A stretch of DNA of 64,000 bases, from NCBI GenBank assembly GCA_026389015.1, contig JAPLIR010000025.1, positions 1 to 64,000 of the forward strand. The letters are read 5' to 3'. Below, in pieces: positions 46,262 through 55,642 of this stretch (within the stretch, counting starts at the first letter, position 1; every line of letters starts with the position of its first letter). The notes under the pieces were generated by a model. That model had not been told where the DNA came from, searched no databases, and saw nothing but the letters and a program-made list of their open reading frames with translations. Source of the DNA: Candidatus Dependentiae bacterium. GTDB taxonomy: Bacteria; Babelota; Babeliae; Babelales; Vermiphilaceae. Position numbers and translations under genes: made by a program.

Positions 46262-46756
46262 ATGGTACATAAAAATATTGTTGCAGCGTTAACCGTTGTT
46301 GCATTGGTTTCATCATCTGCACAAGCTGGTATTCTTCAAAGCAAATTAGACACAACACCTAAAAAAGTTGTTGCGGGTACTTTAGCTGCAGGTACTGTAG
46401 TTGGTGGTGTAGTTGTAGGTAAGAAAGTGTATGAATCAAGAAGAGCAAAAGCAGCAGCTGACAAAGCATTAGCTGATGCGACTGCAGCAACCAAATTAGC
46501 AGCTGACCAAGCTAGATTGGATAATCTTGCCAAAGAACTTGGCTTTGGTAAATCAAATGAAGCACAAACCAAGGTCCTTGCAGAATTTGTAAGATTGGCA
46601 CATAGCACCAACGTTTTTGCAGATGTATATGCAGCTCAAGCAGCAGAAGCAGCAAAAGTAAAGGCAGCTGCAGCTACTTCATCATCATCATCTTCTTCTT
46701 CAAGCAGCAGCTCATCATCAGCAACAACAGAAGAAAAAAAATCATCAAGCAAATAA
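46262..46756 (+). CDS. Exported Ala-rich coiled-coil protein with poly-Ser tail
   Basis: A 164-residue protein. Signal peptide MVHKNIVAALTVVALVSSSAQA, a Gly/Val-rich hydrophobic stretch (GTLAAGTVVGGVVVGKKVYE), an Ala/Lys/Asp helical region (KAAADKALADATAATKLAAD) and a C-terminus of about 14 Ser followed by EEKKSSSK. AAGGAG before the ATG supports the start. No family recognised. The poly-Ser tract is encoded by mixed TCA/TCT/AGC codons, so it is selected or old, not a simple triplet slippage. Confidence 0.6.
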   Translation: MVHKNIVAALTVVALVSSSAQAGILQSKLDTTPKKVVAGTLAAGTVVGGVVVGKKVYESRRAKAAADKALADATAATKLAADQARLDNLAKELGFGKSNEAQTKVLAEFVRLAHSTNVFADVYAAQAAEAAKVKAAAATSSSSSSSSSSSSSSATTEEKKSSSK

Positions 46757-48163: not shown

Positions 48164-48193
48164 TTGCTTATTTAGTCAAAAGTTCTGTATAAT
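48164..48193 (+). promoter_or_regulatory. Promoter of the exported helical-protein cluster
   Basis: TTGCTT at 48164-48169 and a perfect TATAAT at 48188-48193 with 18 bases between, about 50 bases before the first gene of the cluster. Confidence 0.6.
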
Positions 48194-48243
48194 TTCAATT
48201 AGAAATATAATACTATAGTAAAATAATAACAAGGAGTGTAGTT

Positions 48244-48819
48244 ATGAAGCGTACCAGAATAATGTTAACCGTTTTGGCAACTGGGTTTTTAATGAGTGGA
48301 TTGTCAATGCATGCCCAGCAGGCCGTGCAGCCAGCAAAATTTCCAGATTTCATGATGCTTTTGGCAAGGGTTATGGAAGTTAAAGACGCGGTGCTTGATC
48401 AGGCAGCGATACAGAAAATTAAGGATGGATTGGCGCAAATTGTTGCTATTAATGTTCGGTTGGAAACGCAAAAGAATATGAATGAAAAAGAACAACATTC
48501 ATTAATTAGAACACGAATTTCCTTAGTGAGTAAATTGGTGGCTGATTCATCGGCATTAAGTAAAGTGCTTTTTGCATTGTTGGAGACACTTAATAGCGAG
48601 CTTTTGGGAAGTTTTAAGCCTGAGATGGCACAAAAACTTGAGCCGGTGCTGACTAAAGTAACAAAGTTTATTGAGGCTTTGCATGAGTCAGCTGTTTCTC
48701 TGGATACGCAAGATAAAGTTAAGGCTAGGCTAGCTGGACTTTCTAAGAGTAATTACGTGATTGAGTTAATTGAGGCATTAATGGCGGTGTTGCTTGATGT
48801 ATCGGCATTACAGAACTAA
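48244..48819 (+). CDS. Exported helical protein, cluster B member 1
   Basis: A 191-residue, nearly all-helical protein with signal peptide MKRTRIMLTVLATGFLMSGL (cleavage near MHA). The mature region has one copy of a unit like the ~100-residue repeat of members 3 and 4: a dimly similar middle (LVSKLVADSSALSKVLFALLETLNSELL), then a PEMAQKLEPVL step and a final helix. AAGGAG precedes the ATG. Function unknown. All six cluster genes share a leader pattern of MK, hydrophobic core, G-x-M-x-G and an A cleavage site. Confidence 0.6.
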   Translation: MKRTRIMLTVLATGFLMSGLSMHAQQAVQPAKFPDFMMLLARVMEVKDAVLDQAAIQKIKDGLAQIVAINVRLETQKNMNEKEQHSLIRTRISLVSKLVADSSALSKVLFALLETLNSELLGSFKPEMAQKLEPVLTKVTKFIEALHESAVSLDTQDKVKARLAGLSKSNYVIELIEALMAVLLDVSALQN

Positions 48820-48853
48820 AAGTATAAATAATAATCAAAAATAGGAGTATAAG

Positions 48854-49309
48854 ATGAAGAAAAATATAATGATGGTTGTTCTGGTAAGTGGATTAGTAAT
48901 GGGTGGCCAGTCGGCGCATGCATCACAACCAGTAACGCCAAGTATGTTACAAACACTATTGCAAGTTCTTCCTGCTGTATTTGCTGCAAAGCCTGGAGTG
49001 GGTGATGTCATTGGTGGCGTTAATACATTGTTGCCAAAAATACAGGCAGATCTTGCTCTTGCAAGTTCTCCTAATGCTCAATTTGGGACCAAAGTAGTGG
49101 CCTACGCTAAAGTAGCTGGCGATGTTGCAATGTTCTTTGATGGGTTGTTAGCCTTTTTATTATCGCTCAATGATGAAATGCAAAAAAATCAGGTTGTTGA
49201 CGTTGTGACGCATGACCAACGCAAAGCTCTGTTGGCACAAGTTCAAGGACTTATTAAAGTTGCAGAGGGATTTGTTGCATCCATGGCGCAATCTATGGGG
49301 CAACGATAA
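48854..49309 (+). CDS. Exported helical protein, cluster B member 2
   Basis: A 151-residue protein with signal peptide MKKNIMMVVLVSGLVMGGQS (cleavage near AHA). The mature part is helical and of one-unit size, with FFDGLLAFLLSLNDEMQKNQ matching in position the K-x-x-N-E-Q part of the repeat seen in members 3 and 4. AGGAG precedes the ATG. It starts 34 bases after member 1, so they are probably in one transcript. Confidence 0.58.
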   Translation: MKKNIMMVVLVSGLVMGGQSAHASQPVTPSMLQTLLQVLPAVFAAKPGVGDVIGGVNTLLPKIQADLALASSPNAQFGTKVVAYAKVAGDVAMFFDGLLAFLLSLNDEMQKNQVVDVVTHDQRKALLAQVQGLIKVAEGFVASMAQSMGQR

Positions 49310-49346
49310 GAAAATAAGTATTCCGCTTGGTTGAAGGGAGCATGCT

Positions 49347-50732
49347 ATGAAGCGTAGTAATATTATACTATCCGCGATTGTGGCAAGCTTCTCTGTATCA
49401 GGCGGTTTATCTTTATATGCTGAGCTTAATCTCGTGCCACTGCAAGAATTTATTAAAGAAATTACTAAGATAACTCCTGGTGTGATTCGCTTGGCAAAAG
49501 AGACAGGGCCATTTTTTGATTCTTTGGCACTAACTCAGAAAAATATATTAAAAAATGCCGCTGCGCTTCAAGAAGGTCAAGTGGCCGGAAAGCCGATTGC
49601 CGAACAACTTCCTCTCATGATTGCCCTGGTTAAGGATGCGACGTCCCTGGTTGAGCAGTCATCTAGTTTTATAAAAATTTTGAACGATCAAATAGTTAAA
49701 AATGTTCAGCCAGACATAAGCGTGCAACTTGCTGGCTATCTTGATTTAGTAGCTGCTTTTAATACACGGATAAAAAATGCTGCACTCAATTTTGAAAAAG
49801 TACTTGCTGCATCAGGGTCTTTTATAACGGCCTTTACCCAATTACAACAAAAAGTAGTGACCGATTTTGGCACATTGGTGCAAGCACGAACAGCAAATAC
49901 TTCGATTATGGCAAGTCTTCCATCGATAATTGCAACAACCAAGGATGCTGTGGCGCTAGTTGACCAAGCAATAGGGTTTGCCGTACTTCTTAACGATCGA
50001 ATGCTTAAAGGGCCGCGACCTGAATTGAATGCTCAAATAGCTACCTATCTTGGGTACGGGACCATGGTAATAAATGGCATTAAAAGTGCTGTATTAGCGT
50101 TGGAAAAAGTGGCAACTGATTCAGGGTCATTTATTTCCTTAATTCCCCCTTTACATCAAAAAATTATGGCAGATATTGCTGAAATTAATCAGTCGATCAC
50201 GGCTAATCTGTCTTTTATGGTCAGGCTCAAAGCCGTGGTGATAGTGGTTAAAGATCTTACAGGCGTTGTTGATGTTCTTATGGGGCTTGCCAAAATTTTT
50301 CATGAACAGATCATAAAGTCTCTTGAGCCTCAGCTCAGTGATTCTTTGGTGGCGTATTATGCTTATTGGGATACGTTCCATAAAGTCGCCAAACTTGTTG
50401 TGGTCGCTCTTGAAAAGGCAGTAGCTGAGGCAACCGATCCTCTTAATCAATTACAGCAAAAATTTATGTCAGACATGGCTGCCCTGCAGGGGGCCAAAAC
50501 CAGCGACACTGCATCATTAATGCTTCGGTTGCCATTGATGAAAGATATTGCTGAAATCGTCGACTTGATGATTAGGATTTCAAAATCCTTTAATGAGCAG
50601 ACGTTTAGAGATGCTGTTCCTTCTGTGTACGCGCAGTTTGGATTGTACATTGGCTTCATTGAGGCCTTCAATGCTGATATTAAAAATACCGTGGACAGTC
50701 TTGCGCAGATTTATTCTGCTTTTAAACAGTGA
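49347..50732 (+). CDS. Exported protein with four ~100-residue helical repeats, cluster B member 3
   Basis: A 461-residue protein with signal peptide (RSNIILSAIVASFSVSGGLS, cleavage near YA). The rest is four tandem repeats starting at about 49530, 49842, 50151 and 50451, that is 104, 103 and 100 codons apart. Each begins near L-x-Q-K, contains a run like RLPxxxxxxKDxxxxVD, a step NEQ or NDQ, then P-x-L plus a Y-x-x-(Y/F) step and a closing LEKV helix. No Cys is evident in the mature part and no known domain is recognised. Leucine-spaced helices suggest an extended helical bundle or coiled rod. Units 3-4 match those of member 4. Confidence 0.62.
   Translation: MKRSNIILSAIVASFSVSGGLSLYAELNLVPLQEFIKEITKITPGVIRLAKETGPFFDSLALTQKNILKNAAALQEGQVAGKPIAEQLPLMIALVKDATSLVEQSSSFIKILNDQIVKNVQPDISVQLAGYLDLVAAFNTRIKNAALNFEKVLAASGSFITAFTQLQQKVVTDFGTLVQARTANTSIMASLPSIIATTKDAVALVDQAIGFAVLLNDRMLKGPRPELNAQIATYLGYGTMVINGIKSAVLALEKVATDSGSFISLIPPLHQKIMADIAEINQSITANLSFMVRLKAVVIVVKDLTGVVDVLMGLAKIFHEQIIKSLEPQLSDSLVAYYAYWDTFHKVAKLVVVALEKAVAEATDPLNQLQQKFMSDMAALQGAKTSDTASLMLRLPLMKDIAEIVDLMIRISKSFNEQTFRDAVPSVYAQFGLYIGFIEAFNADIKNTVDSLAQIYSAFKQ
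49530..50729 (+). repeat. Four tandem ~300-bp coding repeats
   Basis: The units begin at about 49530, 49842, 50151 and 50451, giving spacings of 312, 309 and 300 bases. They are diverged at DNA level but aligned by L-x-Q-K starts and LEKV ends. The last two units are the most similar to units of the downstream gene. Confidence 0.7.
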
Positions 50733-50743
50733 GGAAGCAGGCT

Positions 50744-51916
50744 ATGAAACGTAATAATTATATACTATTAACGATTACAGTAAGCATCTTTGTGCTTGCT
50801 GGTCTGTCGTTGTATGCAGATATTGGTCTTGTGCCAATCTCTGCGCAGACTGCGTTATCGCCTGTACAAGTGTCTGCTAAAACGTCTGTTTCTGCGGCGC
50901 CAGCGTCTGTCGAATCTATTTCTACGACACCAGTGTCTGTGTCTTCTGTCTCGTCAGAAGAATCGGTAAAAAACCTTGCGGTAAACCTTGAGAAGGTATT
51001 AGCGGCATTCGGATCTTTTGTTTCTGATTTCACAACAGTGCAGCAAAAAATTGCTGCTGATGCTACTAATATTGCTCAATCTCGTACAGCTCACACGTCA
51101 TTGATAGCCAATTTTCCATCAGTTGTTGCGACGGCCAAAGAAGGCTTGTCGTTCATTGAAAAGTTGGTAACTTATTTTAATGATCAAATGACCAAAGGCA
51201 CACCGCCAGCATCAAAAGAGCAGTTGGCGATTTATAGTGGTTATTTGACCGTCATGGGCGCAGGACTTAAAGATATTGCCTTAGTTTTAGAAAAAGTGGT
51301 CAATGATGCTGCGCCATTATGGTCGTCGTTCCCTCCTATACATCAAAAAATCATAGCTGATGTTACCGAAATCAATCAGGCAATCACCGCTAATTTATCC
51401 TTTATGGTTAGACTCAAAGCAGTAATAGTGTTGGTTAAAGATCTTACGAGTGTTGTAGATATTGCTATGGCGTTTGCCAGAATTGTGCATGAGCAGATTC
51501 TTAAACCCTTGGATCCTTCATTAGCCGAGTCACTTGCCATCTATTATGGTTACTGGGACACCTTCCACAAAACCGTTAAGTTGGTGGTGGTCGGTCTTGA
51601 AAAAGTAGTGTCAGAAGCAATGGACCCTATTGCCCAATTGCAGCAAAAATTTGTAACCGATATTGCTGCTTTACAGGGAGCAAAGACAGGCGGCACGGCA
51701 TCCTCGCTCATTCGTTTGCCTTTACTTAAAGATGTCGCAGAGGCTATTGATCTTGCTGTTAGGCTTGCAAAATCCTTAAACGAGCAATCGTTTAGAGAGG
51801 CTATGCCTTCCGTATACCAACAAATTACGGGATATATTCACTATGTTGAGGCTTTTAATGCCGATATTAAAACCATGATAACAAGTCTTGAACAGATTTT
51901 TTCTGCCCTAAAATAG
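50744..51916 (+). CDS. Exported protein with three ~100-residue helical repeats, cluster B member 4
   Basis: A 390-residue paralogue of member 3. After the signal peptide (RNNYILLTITVSIFVLAGLS) comes a Ser/Thr/Val/Pro-rich linker (about residues 30-75; VSVSSVSSEE) not present in member 3, then repeats starting at about 51038, 51338 and 51638, exactly 300 bases apart. The last two repeats agree with repeats 3-4 of member 3 at roughly two thirds of positions by eye, e.g. ITANLSFMVRLKAV, YWDTFHK and VEAFNADIK. AGGAAG precedes the ATG at 50744. A clear tandem gene duplication with a swapped N-terminus. Confidence 0.62.
   Translation: MKRNNYILLTITVSIFVLAGLSLYADIGLVPISAQTALSPVQVSAKTSVSAAPASVESISTTPVSVSSVSSEESVKNLAVNLEKVLAAFGSFVSDFTTVQQKIAADATNIAQSRTAHTSLIANFPSVVATAKEGLSFIEKLVTYFNDQMTKGTPPASKEQLAIYSGYLTVMGAGLKDIALVLEKVVNDAAPLWSSFPPIHQKIIADVTEINQAITANLSFMVRLKAVIVLVKDLTSVVDIAMAFARIVHEQILKPLDPSLAESLAIYYGYWDTFHKTVKLVVVGLEKVVSEAMDPIAQLQQKFVTDIAALQGAKTGGTASSLIRLPLLKDVAEAIDLAVRLAKSLNEQSFREAMPSVYQQITGYIHYVEAFNADIKTMITSLEQIFSALK
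51038..51916 (+). repeat. Three tandem 300-bp coding repeats
   Basis: Units start at about 51038, 51338 and 51638 with exact 300-base spacing, each opening (V/I/L)-(Q/H)-QK and closing near LEKV or LEQI. Confidence 0.7.
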
Positions 51917-51929
51917 GGCGATTTAGGTT

Positions 51930-52075
51930 TTCCCAGGTTACCCCCGCCGTCCTCCCTGCCTGTCCGTCGTAGCTAGCCAAGCCGGGAGGCCTGGATTAGC
52001 GAAGTCGGAAGGGTAGCTCGAGTTTTACGAGAGCGAACTTGAAGGCTATTAGCCAGACTGTCCCAGGTTCAAATA
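51930..52075. repeat. GC-rich palindromic intergenic patch
   Basis: A short island much richer in G and C than its surroundings. TCCGTCGTAGCTAG and TTAGCGAAGTCGGA are approximate reverse complements around GCCGGGAGGCC, and CCCAGGTT occurs near both ends (about 51934 and 52065). GCCGTCCT at about 51948 recalls the element at 22917-22998. No gene is visible. A REP-like element is the simplest reading. Confidence 0.6.
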
Positions 52076-52104
52076 GTGAATTTTATATAAAAACATCAAA
52101 ACCA

Positions 52105-52134
52105 TTGATTTATAGCCATTACGTGTGGCATAAT
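52105..52134 (+). promoter_or_regulatory. Possible promoter of cluster B members 5-6
   Basis: TTGATT at 52105-52110 and CATAAT at 52129-52134 with 18 bases between, about 50 bases upstream of the member 5 start. Confidence 0.4.
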
Positions 52135-52186
52135 TACAAGTAGAAATGTATTTTAATCATAACTAATAACAAAAAGGAGAGTTCTA

Positions 52187-52699
52187 ATGAAGAACAAAAT
52201 GATGATGTCCGTTGTGTTAGCGGGCGGTTTATTGATGGGTGGTCAGATTAAGGCCTTCGATTTCGAAGATTTTATGAATGCCGCGAATGATGTTTTGACA
52301 TATGCCAATGAATTTGAGTCAACGGTGTATCAGCCGCTTAAAAATGACCTTGATGCGTTTAAGCAGAAATTTACCGATGAGAAAAATAGAGCTTTGGCAT
52401 CGATACAAATAATTAAAAACAAAAGTACATCAAAACAAGTTAGAACGGCCAATGTCTTTAAGATACTGTTAATTAGTTTTAATTTGTTCAATGAATTATC
52501 TGGTCAATTGATCCGATTTGTTGATGTTGCGAAAAGCATGACTCAAAAGTTGGAGCCTATCAGTAGCGAAATTAGAAAAGGTACAGAGGGTATGGCGATG
52601 GTTCAGGATAAAATCAGAGATGTTCAAAAGTATGCCGACAGAATTGGTTCTTTAATTACTACGCTGTCTCGCTTATTAGGAACTCCCGTACCTAACTAA
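52187..52699 (+). CDS. Exported helical protein, cluster B member 5
   Basis: A 170-residue protein with signal peptide MKNKMMMSVVLAGGLLMGGQ (cleavage near IKA). The mature part is highly charged and helical, with a Lys-rich early part (DLDAFKQKFTDEKNRALAS) and a middle hydrophobic FKILLISFNLFNELSG. It is one repeat-unit in size, but similarity to members 3-4 is weak. AAGGAGAG precedes the ATG. Separated from member 4 by the GC-rich palindromic patch and its own possible promoter. Function unknown. Confidence 0.58.
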   Translation: MKNKMMMSVVLAGGLLMGGQIKAFDFEDFMNAANDVLTYANEFESTVYQPLKNDLDAFKQKFTDEKNRALASIQIIKNKSTSKQVRTANVFKILLISFNLFNELSGQLIRFVDVAKSMTQKLEPISSEIRKGTEGMAMVQDKIRDVQKYADRIGSLITTLSRLLGTPVPN

Positions 52700-52757
52700 A
52701 ACAATCGATAACTTATGGTAAGTATTAAGCTATATAAAATAAAATAAGGAAAAAATT

Positions 52758-53306
52758 ATGAAGAATAAAAATAACATAATGGCATTAGCCTTGAGTGGTA
52801 TGGTCATGATGAGTGGGCAATTAATGTATGCTCAACAGGAAGAGGTGTCCAATTTAACGCGTGGAACTCGTATGTTGAACAAAGCCATTCCATTGGTGAT
52901 CCAAGTTCTTAATGTGGTTAAATCTTTTGATAAAAACATAAGCATTATAAAAAATAACATTGATGATAAGGATTTAACGCCAAAGAAGATTTTTAAGTTG
53001 GTTGTTACTATGACTCTTCTTGTGAACGATTTGAATAGTACGTTGAAATCGTTATTTGAATTTACTGGAGAAGCACCGATTGTAAAACTCAGAAATCTTA
53101 GTGCTGTAGCTGTGTTTAGGTTGGCACAGATTGAGGCTATTTTTAAGACTATAACGAGTAATCTAAAAGATGTACTTGAGTTAGTTGAGGCGATAGATCC
53201 AGAACCAGTTCCTGCCAAAGCACAAGAGTTGCAAAAGAAAATAGAAAAAATTGAAAAAGATCCTGAAGCTATTATGGATGAAGAAGAGCCTGTTTTTGAG
53301 GACTAA
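52758..53306 (+). CDS. Exported helical protein, cluster B member 6
   Basis: A 182-residue protein with signal peptide (NNIMALALSGMVMMSGQLMY, cleavage near AQ). The layout follows member 5 (LTPKKIFKLVVTMTLLVNDLNSTLKSL against VRTANVFKILLISFNLFNELSGQL), so the two are paralogues. It ends with a charged tail very rich in Glu, Lys and Pro (KKIEKIEKDPEAIMDEEEP). AAGGA precedes the ATG. Function unknown. Confidence 0.58.
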   Translation: MKNKNNIMALALSGMVMMSGQLMYAQQEEVSNLTRGTRMLNKAIPLVIQVLNVVKSFDKNISIIKNNIDDKDLTPKKIFKLVVTMTLLVNDLNSTLKSLFEFTGEAPIVKLRNLSAVAVFRLAQIEAIFKTITSNLKDVLELVEAIDPEPVPAKAQELQKKIEKIEKDPEAIMDEEEPVFED

Positions 53307-54271: not shown

Positions 54272-55642
54272 TTATAGCTCTCTTACTTTTTCTTTTTTTT
54301 GTTTAGAGATAACAAATTCGGTTTCTGGTGCGTGTCGTGCTGGCACAACAATCAGTTGTTCAGCAATTTTTTTGCCGTCAAGCACTGCTTCTTGCATGCT
54401 CGAGTATTTCCATTCGCCATAGCGGCCGACAGAATGTACCGATTCTTGTGCGAGGCGGTTGTGAATTTTTGGCAAATTCTTTTCGCGCCAGGTGTCGTAA
54501 ATGACATACGCATGGCTAATCGGGATTATTTTTTGCATGAGGATTTCTGAATCAGCAATGTTGAATAATTTTTTGGTTGCATCAAGTGATGCTTTGAGGG
54601 TGCTCGTTACCCATGTTTTCGATTTATTAACATGGGAAAATTCACCATAGAGTGAACTGCAGCCTGGCGGTGTCATGAATTGCGAGCAATTAGATGGGAA
54701 TCCCATGCGATAAAACGGATAGTGCTTTTCGGGAAAGTAAATCCAATGTTTTTCGGAAAGCTGTGGGCGATTCACCCCAAGATTAAAGTTGATGACTTTA
54801 TTGCACAGCAACTTATCGGCAGCAGTTGCAAGTGATGTTGAAGATTTTTCCTGCAAGCTGCTCAGTAACTTATCAAGCGGCATGGTGCTAATCAGTTGCT
54901 CAAAAGGTTCCACATGGCCATTGGTAAACGATACAGTTTTTGTTTTTAAATCAATGGCACTGACGCAAAAGTTGGTATGAATTGGCTGGGTAAGTTGGTC
55001 AGCAATTTTTTGTACCCAGAACAGTATGCCGCCTTTTTTGGGATATAAAAAGCTAGCGTTATACCCAATCAGAGTATCATCGATATCCTGCATTGAGCCT
55101 TTAACAATCTGTTGCAACGACGTTTGTGGCACAAAGCGGCCCGTCCAACTGGCGGTAATTTTTTCTAGCGGATGTCCAAAGATTTTGCGTTGGAAGGGAA
55201 AAAAGAACTGTTTGCCAAAGCCAGCGCCAAAATTTTGGAGAACCCATTCAGGGAATGTTTGTGGTTTTTTGCGTGAGCGATTACGCAGCACAAATCCTTC
55301 AATGCATTCGGCAATTACTTGGTCAGATAACCCAAAAAGGTTTACCTGAAATGGATAGCGGGTGTAGGTGTCATGAGAATAGATAAATGATTTGCGAATC
55401 ACGGTGTTCAGATTTTCCATGCCGACTAATTGTTCTATCATTGAGCGGAAGTAAGGGTCGCTTGCGTGCAAATAATGGCCAGTGAAGTCAAAGGTAAAGC
55501 CATCTTGGGCAATGGTGCCGCACAACCCACCGATGGTGTTATCTCGTTCAAAAATGGCATAATCGTTAAAGCCTTTTTGTTCTAGGTGGTAGGCAGCTGA
55601 AATGCCGGTTAACCCTGCTCCAATAATCACTATCTTTGCCAT
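54272..55642 (-). CDS. FAD-dependent oxidoreductase (UDP-galactopyranose mutase/amine oxidase-like)
   Basis: A 456-residue flavoprotein with IVIIGAGLTGISAAYHLEQ at the N-terminus, GGLCGTIAQDGFTFDFTGHY (pattern common in UDP-galactopyranose-mutase-like and protoporphyrinogen-oxidase-like proteins), and a C-terminal SVGRYGEWKYSSMQEAVLDG FAD-contact region. AAAGGA about nine bases upstream on the minus strand supports the start. Tight pairing with a sugar epimerase suggests a role in nucleotide-sugar or cell-surface glycan synthesis; the exact substrate is not known. Confidence 0.78.
   Translation of the reverse strand: MAKIVIIGAGLTGISAAYHLEQKGFNDYAIFERDNTIGGLCGTIAQDGFTFDFTGHYLHASDPYFRSMIEQLVGMENLNTVIRKSFIYSHDTYTRYPFQVNLFGLSDQVIAECIEGFVLRNRSRKKPQTFPEWVLQNFGAGFGKQFFFPFQRKIFGHPLEKITASWTGRFVPQTSLQQIVKGSMQDIDDTLIGYNASFLYPKKGGILFWVQKIADQLTQPIHTNFCVSAIDLKTKTVSFTNGHVEPFEQLISTMPLDKLLSSLQEKSSTSLATAADKLLCNKVINFNLGVNRPQLSEKHWIYFPEKHYPFYRMGFPSNCSQFMTPPGCSSLYGEFSHVNKSKTWVTSTLKASLDATKKLFNIADSEILMQKIIPISHAYVIYDTWREKNLPKIHNRLAQESVHSVGRYGEWKYSSMQEAVLDGKKIAEQLIVVPARHAPETEFVISKQKKEKVREL

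Follow-up and report, generated by a model that had tools for sequence, protein, structure and literature searches.

The spectrin repeat is a unit of about 105 residues that is composed of three helices, and a continuous helix can run from one unit into the next. Among bacterial proteins, the giant staphylococcal surface proteins Ebh and Embp are built of tandem three-helix F- and FG-repeats with low identity between the repeats, and in Embp a shared helix joins two three-helix bundles of FG-repeats, so that the chain forms a rod (PMC7587433). In Dependentiae, the cultured members of which parasitise protists and have large exported repertoires (PMC6561590, PMC4378268), 44% of the proteins of Chromulinavorax carry a signal sequence, and ORFans are over-represented among them (PMC6561590). 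The locus analysed here, from a Candidatus Dependentiae bacterium, encodes exported-type proteins that include tandem helical units.

The window, that is, the whole 64,000 nt stretch of DNA analysed, lies on contig 25 of a genome of 1.33 Mb. In the ORF listing, six plus-strand ORFs were found in a row, head to tail, spanning 48244-53306 and flanked by two minus-strand genes, dnaJ and that of an epimerase. Members 1 (48244-48819, 191 aa) and 2 (48854-49309, 151 aa) consist of a Sec-type leader and a single helical domain; member 3 (49347-50732, 461 aa) carries a Sec-type leader and four units, and member 4 (50744-51916, 390 aa from the ATG) a Sec-type leader, a Ser/Val/Pro-rich linker and three units; members 5 (52187-52699, 170 aa) and 6 (52758-53306, 182 aa), also with Sec-type leaders, are helical, the latter ending in an acidic tail. 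Each of the six starts at an ATG with a purine-rich, ribosome-site-like stretch immediately 5′ of it, and each translation begins with MK, a hydrophobic stretch and then an Ala cleavage-like site, as expected of a Sec-type leader; the leaders were scored by a crude predictor that is prone to over-calling and from whose list member 6 is missing. The mature parts of all six are devoid of Cys, no clear membrane segment was seen in them by hydropathy, and they look helical, with the strongest hydropathy periodicity at 100-105 degrees in six of six members (weakest in member 1). The ORFs, the leaders and the helical periodicity together confirmed the six adjacent exported-type helical proteins claimed by the first-pass annotation. 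The common leader pattern that it also described applied to a part of the cluster: members 1, 2 and 5 have the strict motif Met-X-Gly-Gln/Leu/Gly, member 6 has a near form of it, and it is absent from members 3 and 4. With 14 stretches of 20 kb from the own genome sampled as a control, 344 kb of this genome gave 133 leader-bearing ORFs; none of the others among these carries the motif, and member 5 ranked second of the 133 in the strength of its 100-degree periodicity.

Members 1-4 are separated from members 5-6 by a dispersed GC-rich element (51917-52080), which has 31 full or partial matches in the own genome, itself included, and no match in Rfam, and whose core 12-mer was not found in the stretches of relatives examined. 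A possible promoter of members 5-6 (52105-52134, plus strand; TTGATT-18-CATAAT preceded by TG) was assigned by consensus match only, the number of promoter-like sites in the cluster region being not above that in shuffles. On the far side of dnaJ, 46262-46756 encodes an exported protein that has a long poly-Ser run close to the C terminus.

The units of members 3 and 4, all on the plus strand, are about 103 residues long and spaced by about 97-103 residues. In member 3 they occupy 49479-49790 (unit 1), 49791-50099 (unit 2), 50100-50408 (unit 3) and 50409-50720 (unit 4), and in member 4, repeat comparison and held-out profiles located them at 50987-51286 (unit 2), 51287-51595 (unit 3) and 51596-51907 (unit 4). 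Profiles built from the other unit positions recovered the held-out units at E 4e-11 to 3e-22 (3.5e-19 for unit 1 of member 3), whereas no background protein in these tests did better than E 0.017, a value reached by member 2 itself. The repeats in members 3 and 4 are therefore proven and far above chance, and four units in the former and three in the latter, as originally counted, were confirmed. These repeats had been called exact, which did not hold, since the units inside one protein share an identity of from 22-24% up to 32% in protein and of 45-51% in DNA, and all non-matching unit pairs across members 3 and 4 share 22-33% protein identity. Identity rises between matching units of the two proteins, to 64% for unit 3, 63% for unit 4 and 42% for unit 2, and the longest identical run between the two members is ITANLSFMVRLKAV; the statement that the last two units of each agree at about two thirds of positions thus stood for unit 3 or unit 4 compared across the two proteins, and not within one protein.

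A unit resembles its counterpart in the other protein more than it resembles its neighbours in the same protein, which indicates that the order 2-3-4 predates the split of genes 3 and 4, and by these comparisons member 4 is a tandem duplicate of member 3. Unit 1 is without a counterpart in member 4, where its place is taken by the Ser/Val/Pro-rich linker; it was either lost from gene 4 or gained by gene 3. Both the change in unit number and the duplication with divergence that had been suggested were borne out, by the one unit fewer in member 4 with a linker in its place and by the comparison of units and paralogues, respectively. Over units 2-4, the two members are 57% identical, with dN 0.30, dS about 2.0 (near saturation) and dN/dS about 0.15. 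The low dN/dS at a dS near saturation indicates that selection acted on the protein and that genes 3 and 4 were both maintained as proteins, and the pair is best read as a modular family under purifying selection.

The relationship of the other four members to these units is less firm. In shuffle tests on the mature parts, the pair of members 3 and 4 alone was secure (Z 145), all other pairs giving Z 3.4 or less. When a seven-unit profile was compared with about 1,240 Dependentiae proteins, members 1 and 2 took ranks 1 (E 0.56) and 2 (E 0.61), and against a background of the same size, the two best non-self matches of member 5 were members 1 and 6 (E 0.2-0.3); a weak link of member 6 to member 5 appeared in both the shuffle and the profile tests. 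Using hhalign, member 1 was aligned with the repeat unit at E 9e-4 but at a probability of 22%, and it may possibly be a distant relative of the unit, corresponding to helices B and C. Whole-protein BLAST among the members gave 1e-5 to 1e-8, with composition correction off and partly driven by the leaders. A common origin of members 1, 2, 5 and 6 with the units is regarded as likely, although their kinship is only suggestive and falls short of significance by E-value.

The fold of one unit was modelled by AF2 on 50091-50420, around unit 3 of member 3, from an alignment of nine rows with members 1 and 2 included. The model has three long helices, at residues 2-37 (kinked near 16), 42-78 and 80-109, with a pLDDT of 84.2 and a pTM of 0.61, making it plausible that one repeat unit folds as a three-helix bundle. 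Against solved and viral structures, this model obtained no match at E below 0.001, and its best fold matches were generic helical bundles, designed proteins among them. Whole member 3, modelled from a two-row alignment, was all-helical at low confidence (pLDDT 51), with long helices crossing the unit borders; owing to this pLDDT, the model was rejected as a fold-search query. The unit of about 103 residues, modelled as three helices, resembles the spectrin repeat, with a cross-border helix seen here only in the pLDDT 51 model; no spectrin was among the listed fold matches of the unit, and the spectrin repeat profile (PF00435) gave no Pfam match up to E 1 in members 1-6. Likewise, tandem three-helix units of low mutual identity are shared with Ebh and Embp, and the unit model would be compatible with a rod, whereas members 3 and 4 have three to four units compared with dozens in Ebh/Embp, and neither a Pfam match up to E 1 nor any other sequence link to the Ebh/Embp three-helix repeats was found. 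In searches against Pfam, NCBIfam and PHROGs, no fitting family was found for the members. The earlier statement that no known family was recognised was upheld by these three collections, and a significant match to a characterised domain, chosen beforehand as a refuting outcome, was not obtained. An NCBIfam B12-dependent reductase match of member 4 (E 2.4e-4; 19.5 bits, the cut-off being 1125) was discarded as a chance helical match, and the idea of a phage tape-measure protein was set aside, its sole basis being PHROGs matches of member 5 at E about 0.06.

To our reading, no relative of members 3 and 4 survived in 100 other Dependentiae genomes. In G024 they matched an aminotransferase-like gene, the contig of which looks foreign, and in G092 a short ORF at the end of a contig (E 0.004); these matches were judged to be chance or too weak. 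The six-member profile gave matches in 11 genomes, likewise judged to be chance, the three that were read being an exported helical protein, a pilin-like protein and an alanyl-tRNA synthetase-like protein. No relative was found in the GTDB species genomes, IMG/VR, plasmids and phages, where the species-genome and viral scans used short peptide patterns by which distant relatives could be missed. Because none of the 100 belongs to the same genus, the claim is limited to the family not having been found outside its genus.

The surroundings of the cluster are conserved in the phylum. The order of gyrB, tilS, the flavoprotein gene, the epimerase gene and dnaJ is kept in relatives, and the flavoprotein gene (54272-55642, minus strand) is 60-63% identical to copies in Dependentiae/Babeliales genomes, which together with the shared gene order identifies the host as a Candidatus Dependentiae bacterium; the minus-strand neighbours encode the sugar epimerase, this flavoprotein, with weak mutase/oxidoreductase matches, and a weakly TolA/TonB-like protein. 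In other Dependentiae, the epimerase-dnaJ gap measures between 39 bases and a few kilobases; many of these slots are near empty, and about half carry one to four ORFs, mostly exported orphans. The slot proteins of G003, G008, G010 and G021 look helical, with internal repeats in G008 and G010, and for those of the same four genomes and of G017 no homology to the cluster members was found (Z below 3, profile E above 0.1). The G017 slot (L058:10040-11868) is occupied by a tandem of three helical exported proteins, with a weak relationship (Z 5.6) between the first two, and the G026 slot (L080:1199-1834) holds, as judged by eye, what seems to be a Doc-type toxin with an AbrB-type antitoxin and no exported proteins. 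The content thus differs among relatives, which makes the dnaJ-epimerase slot a variable spot, and the cluster studied is its richest content among the genomes seen.

Elsewhere in the same genome, leader-bearing ORFs are very common in the sampled stretches. On contig 16, about six exported proteins, 640-690 residues long and 34-50% identical to one another, are encoded in tandem (L110:1264-18858), and a further copy lies at L109:13649-15367. On contig 28, four small exported proteins in a row, two of them 50% identical, form a cluster akin to the studied one (L105:4587-6613), and contig 22 encodes a neighbouring pair of exported proteins that share 52% identity and have a very high content of Pro and Gly (27-29%; L111:6778-9534). 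Many signal-bearing proteins without assigned function, expanded paralogue families and genome islands with exported genes are likewise reported for Chromulinavorax destructans and Babela massiliensis (PMC6561590, PMC4378268). The published reports stress ankyrin and other known repeats (PMC6561590, PMC4378268), whereas members 3 and 4 have a helical unit of their own, and the ankyrin repeat profile gave no Pfam match up to E 1. Considering the exported paralogue groups elsewhere in the genome, the exported-orphan slots of relatives and the 44% in Chromulinavorax, the arrangement is usual for the phylum. The proposal of an undescribed system was therefore abandoned, as the genes show no tie that would make a system of them and exported orphan groups are usual in Dependentiae (PMC6561590); the cluster represents a protein family that is new but, for its host, of an ordinary kind.

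Collectively, we consider it fairly probable that the cluster represents a family of Sec-exported helical modular proteins that is restricted to its lineage and has been duplicated in tandem, and its role is probably one of binding or scaffolding outside the inner membrane. With the leader cut at the Ala site, the product would reside in the periplasm or further out. Helix C of one unit may continue into helix A of the next, and three or four bundles may then form a stiff rod, both as drawn from the low-confidence model (pLDDT 51). Such a rod could bind a partner, either an envelope or a host component, via the better conserved units 3 and 4, and the single-domain members could act as separate small binders or partners.

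On the site of action, two possibilities are each put forward tentatively. Rods and small helical proteins on the surface or released could bind components of a protist host, with lineage turnover arising from host adaptation, a possibility consistent with the parasitism of cultured Dependentiae on protists and their large exported repertoires (PMC6561590, PMC4378268), with the occurrence of the family in one genome only and with the exported orphans that occupy the dnaJ-epimerase slot in many relatives; however, a Sec leader alone does not carry a protein across the outer membrane, no eukaryote-like domain is present, and the dN/dS of members 3 and 4 indicates constraint rather than fast adaptive change. 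Equally, they may be periplasmic scaffold or chaperone-like helical proteins for the bacterium's own use, as the Sec-type leaders, the soluble helical bundles and neighbours such as the sugar epimerase, the flavoprotein and the weakly TolA/TonB-like protein could suggest, although these neighbours are conserved across the phylum and the cluster is not, so that no shared pathway is indicated. A more specific idea, that an intracellular protist parasite exports sequence-unrelated, Ebh- or spectrin-like helical rods to bind host structures, with unit number varying between paralogues, appears unlikely. Similarly improbable is that these are orphans without any particular role that duplication has preserved, with members 1, 2, 5 and 6 having no kinship to the units and only leader and helicity in common: the shuffle Z of 3.4 or less in every pair except 3/4 and the abundance of leader-bearing ORFs in the own genome would fit this, but dN lies well below dS in units 2-4 and the small members ranked high in the background test. 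Lastly, helical pore-formers of the haemolysin BL or ClyA kind are very improbable: member 3 has a weak helical resemblance to the former (Bacillus_HBL, PF05791, E 0.066) and its helices are amphipathic, but the 13.5 bits fall far under the curated gathering score of 29.1, members 3 and 4 have tandem units, to our knowledge not typical of the haemolysin BL family, and no clear membrane hairpin, the top 19-residue hydropathy window of the mature part reaches 1.93 with charged residues inside, and no haemolysin BL/ClyA fold occurs among the 50 listed fold matches.

As a lineage-restricted family of exported helical modular proteins, the favoured reading, the cluster adds an unnamed family to the large set of exported orphans presumed to serve Dependentiae in their life as parasites, and the slot in which it lies, with conserved edges and variable content, is a place to compare the origin and turnover of orphans across genera.
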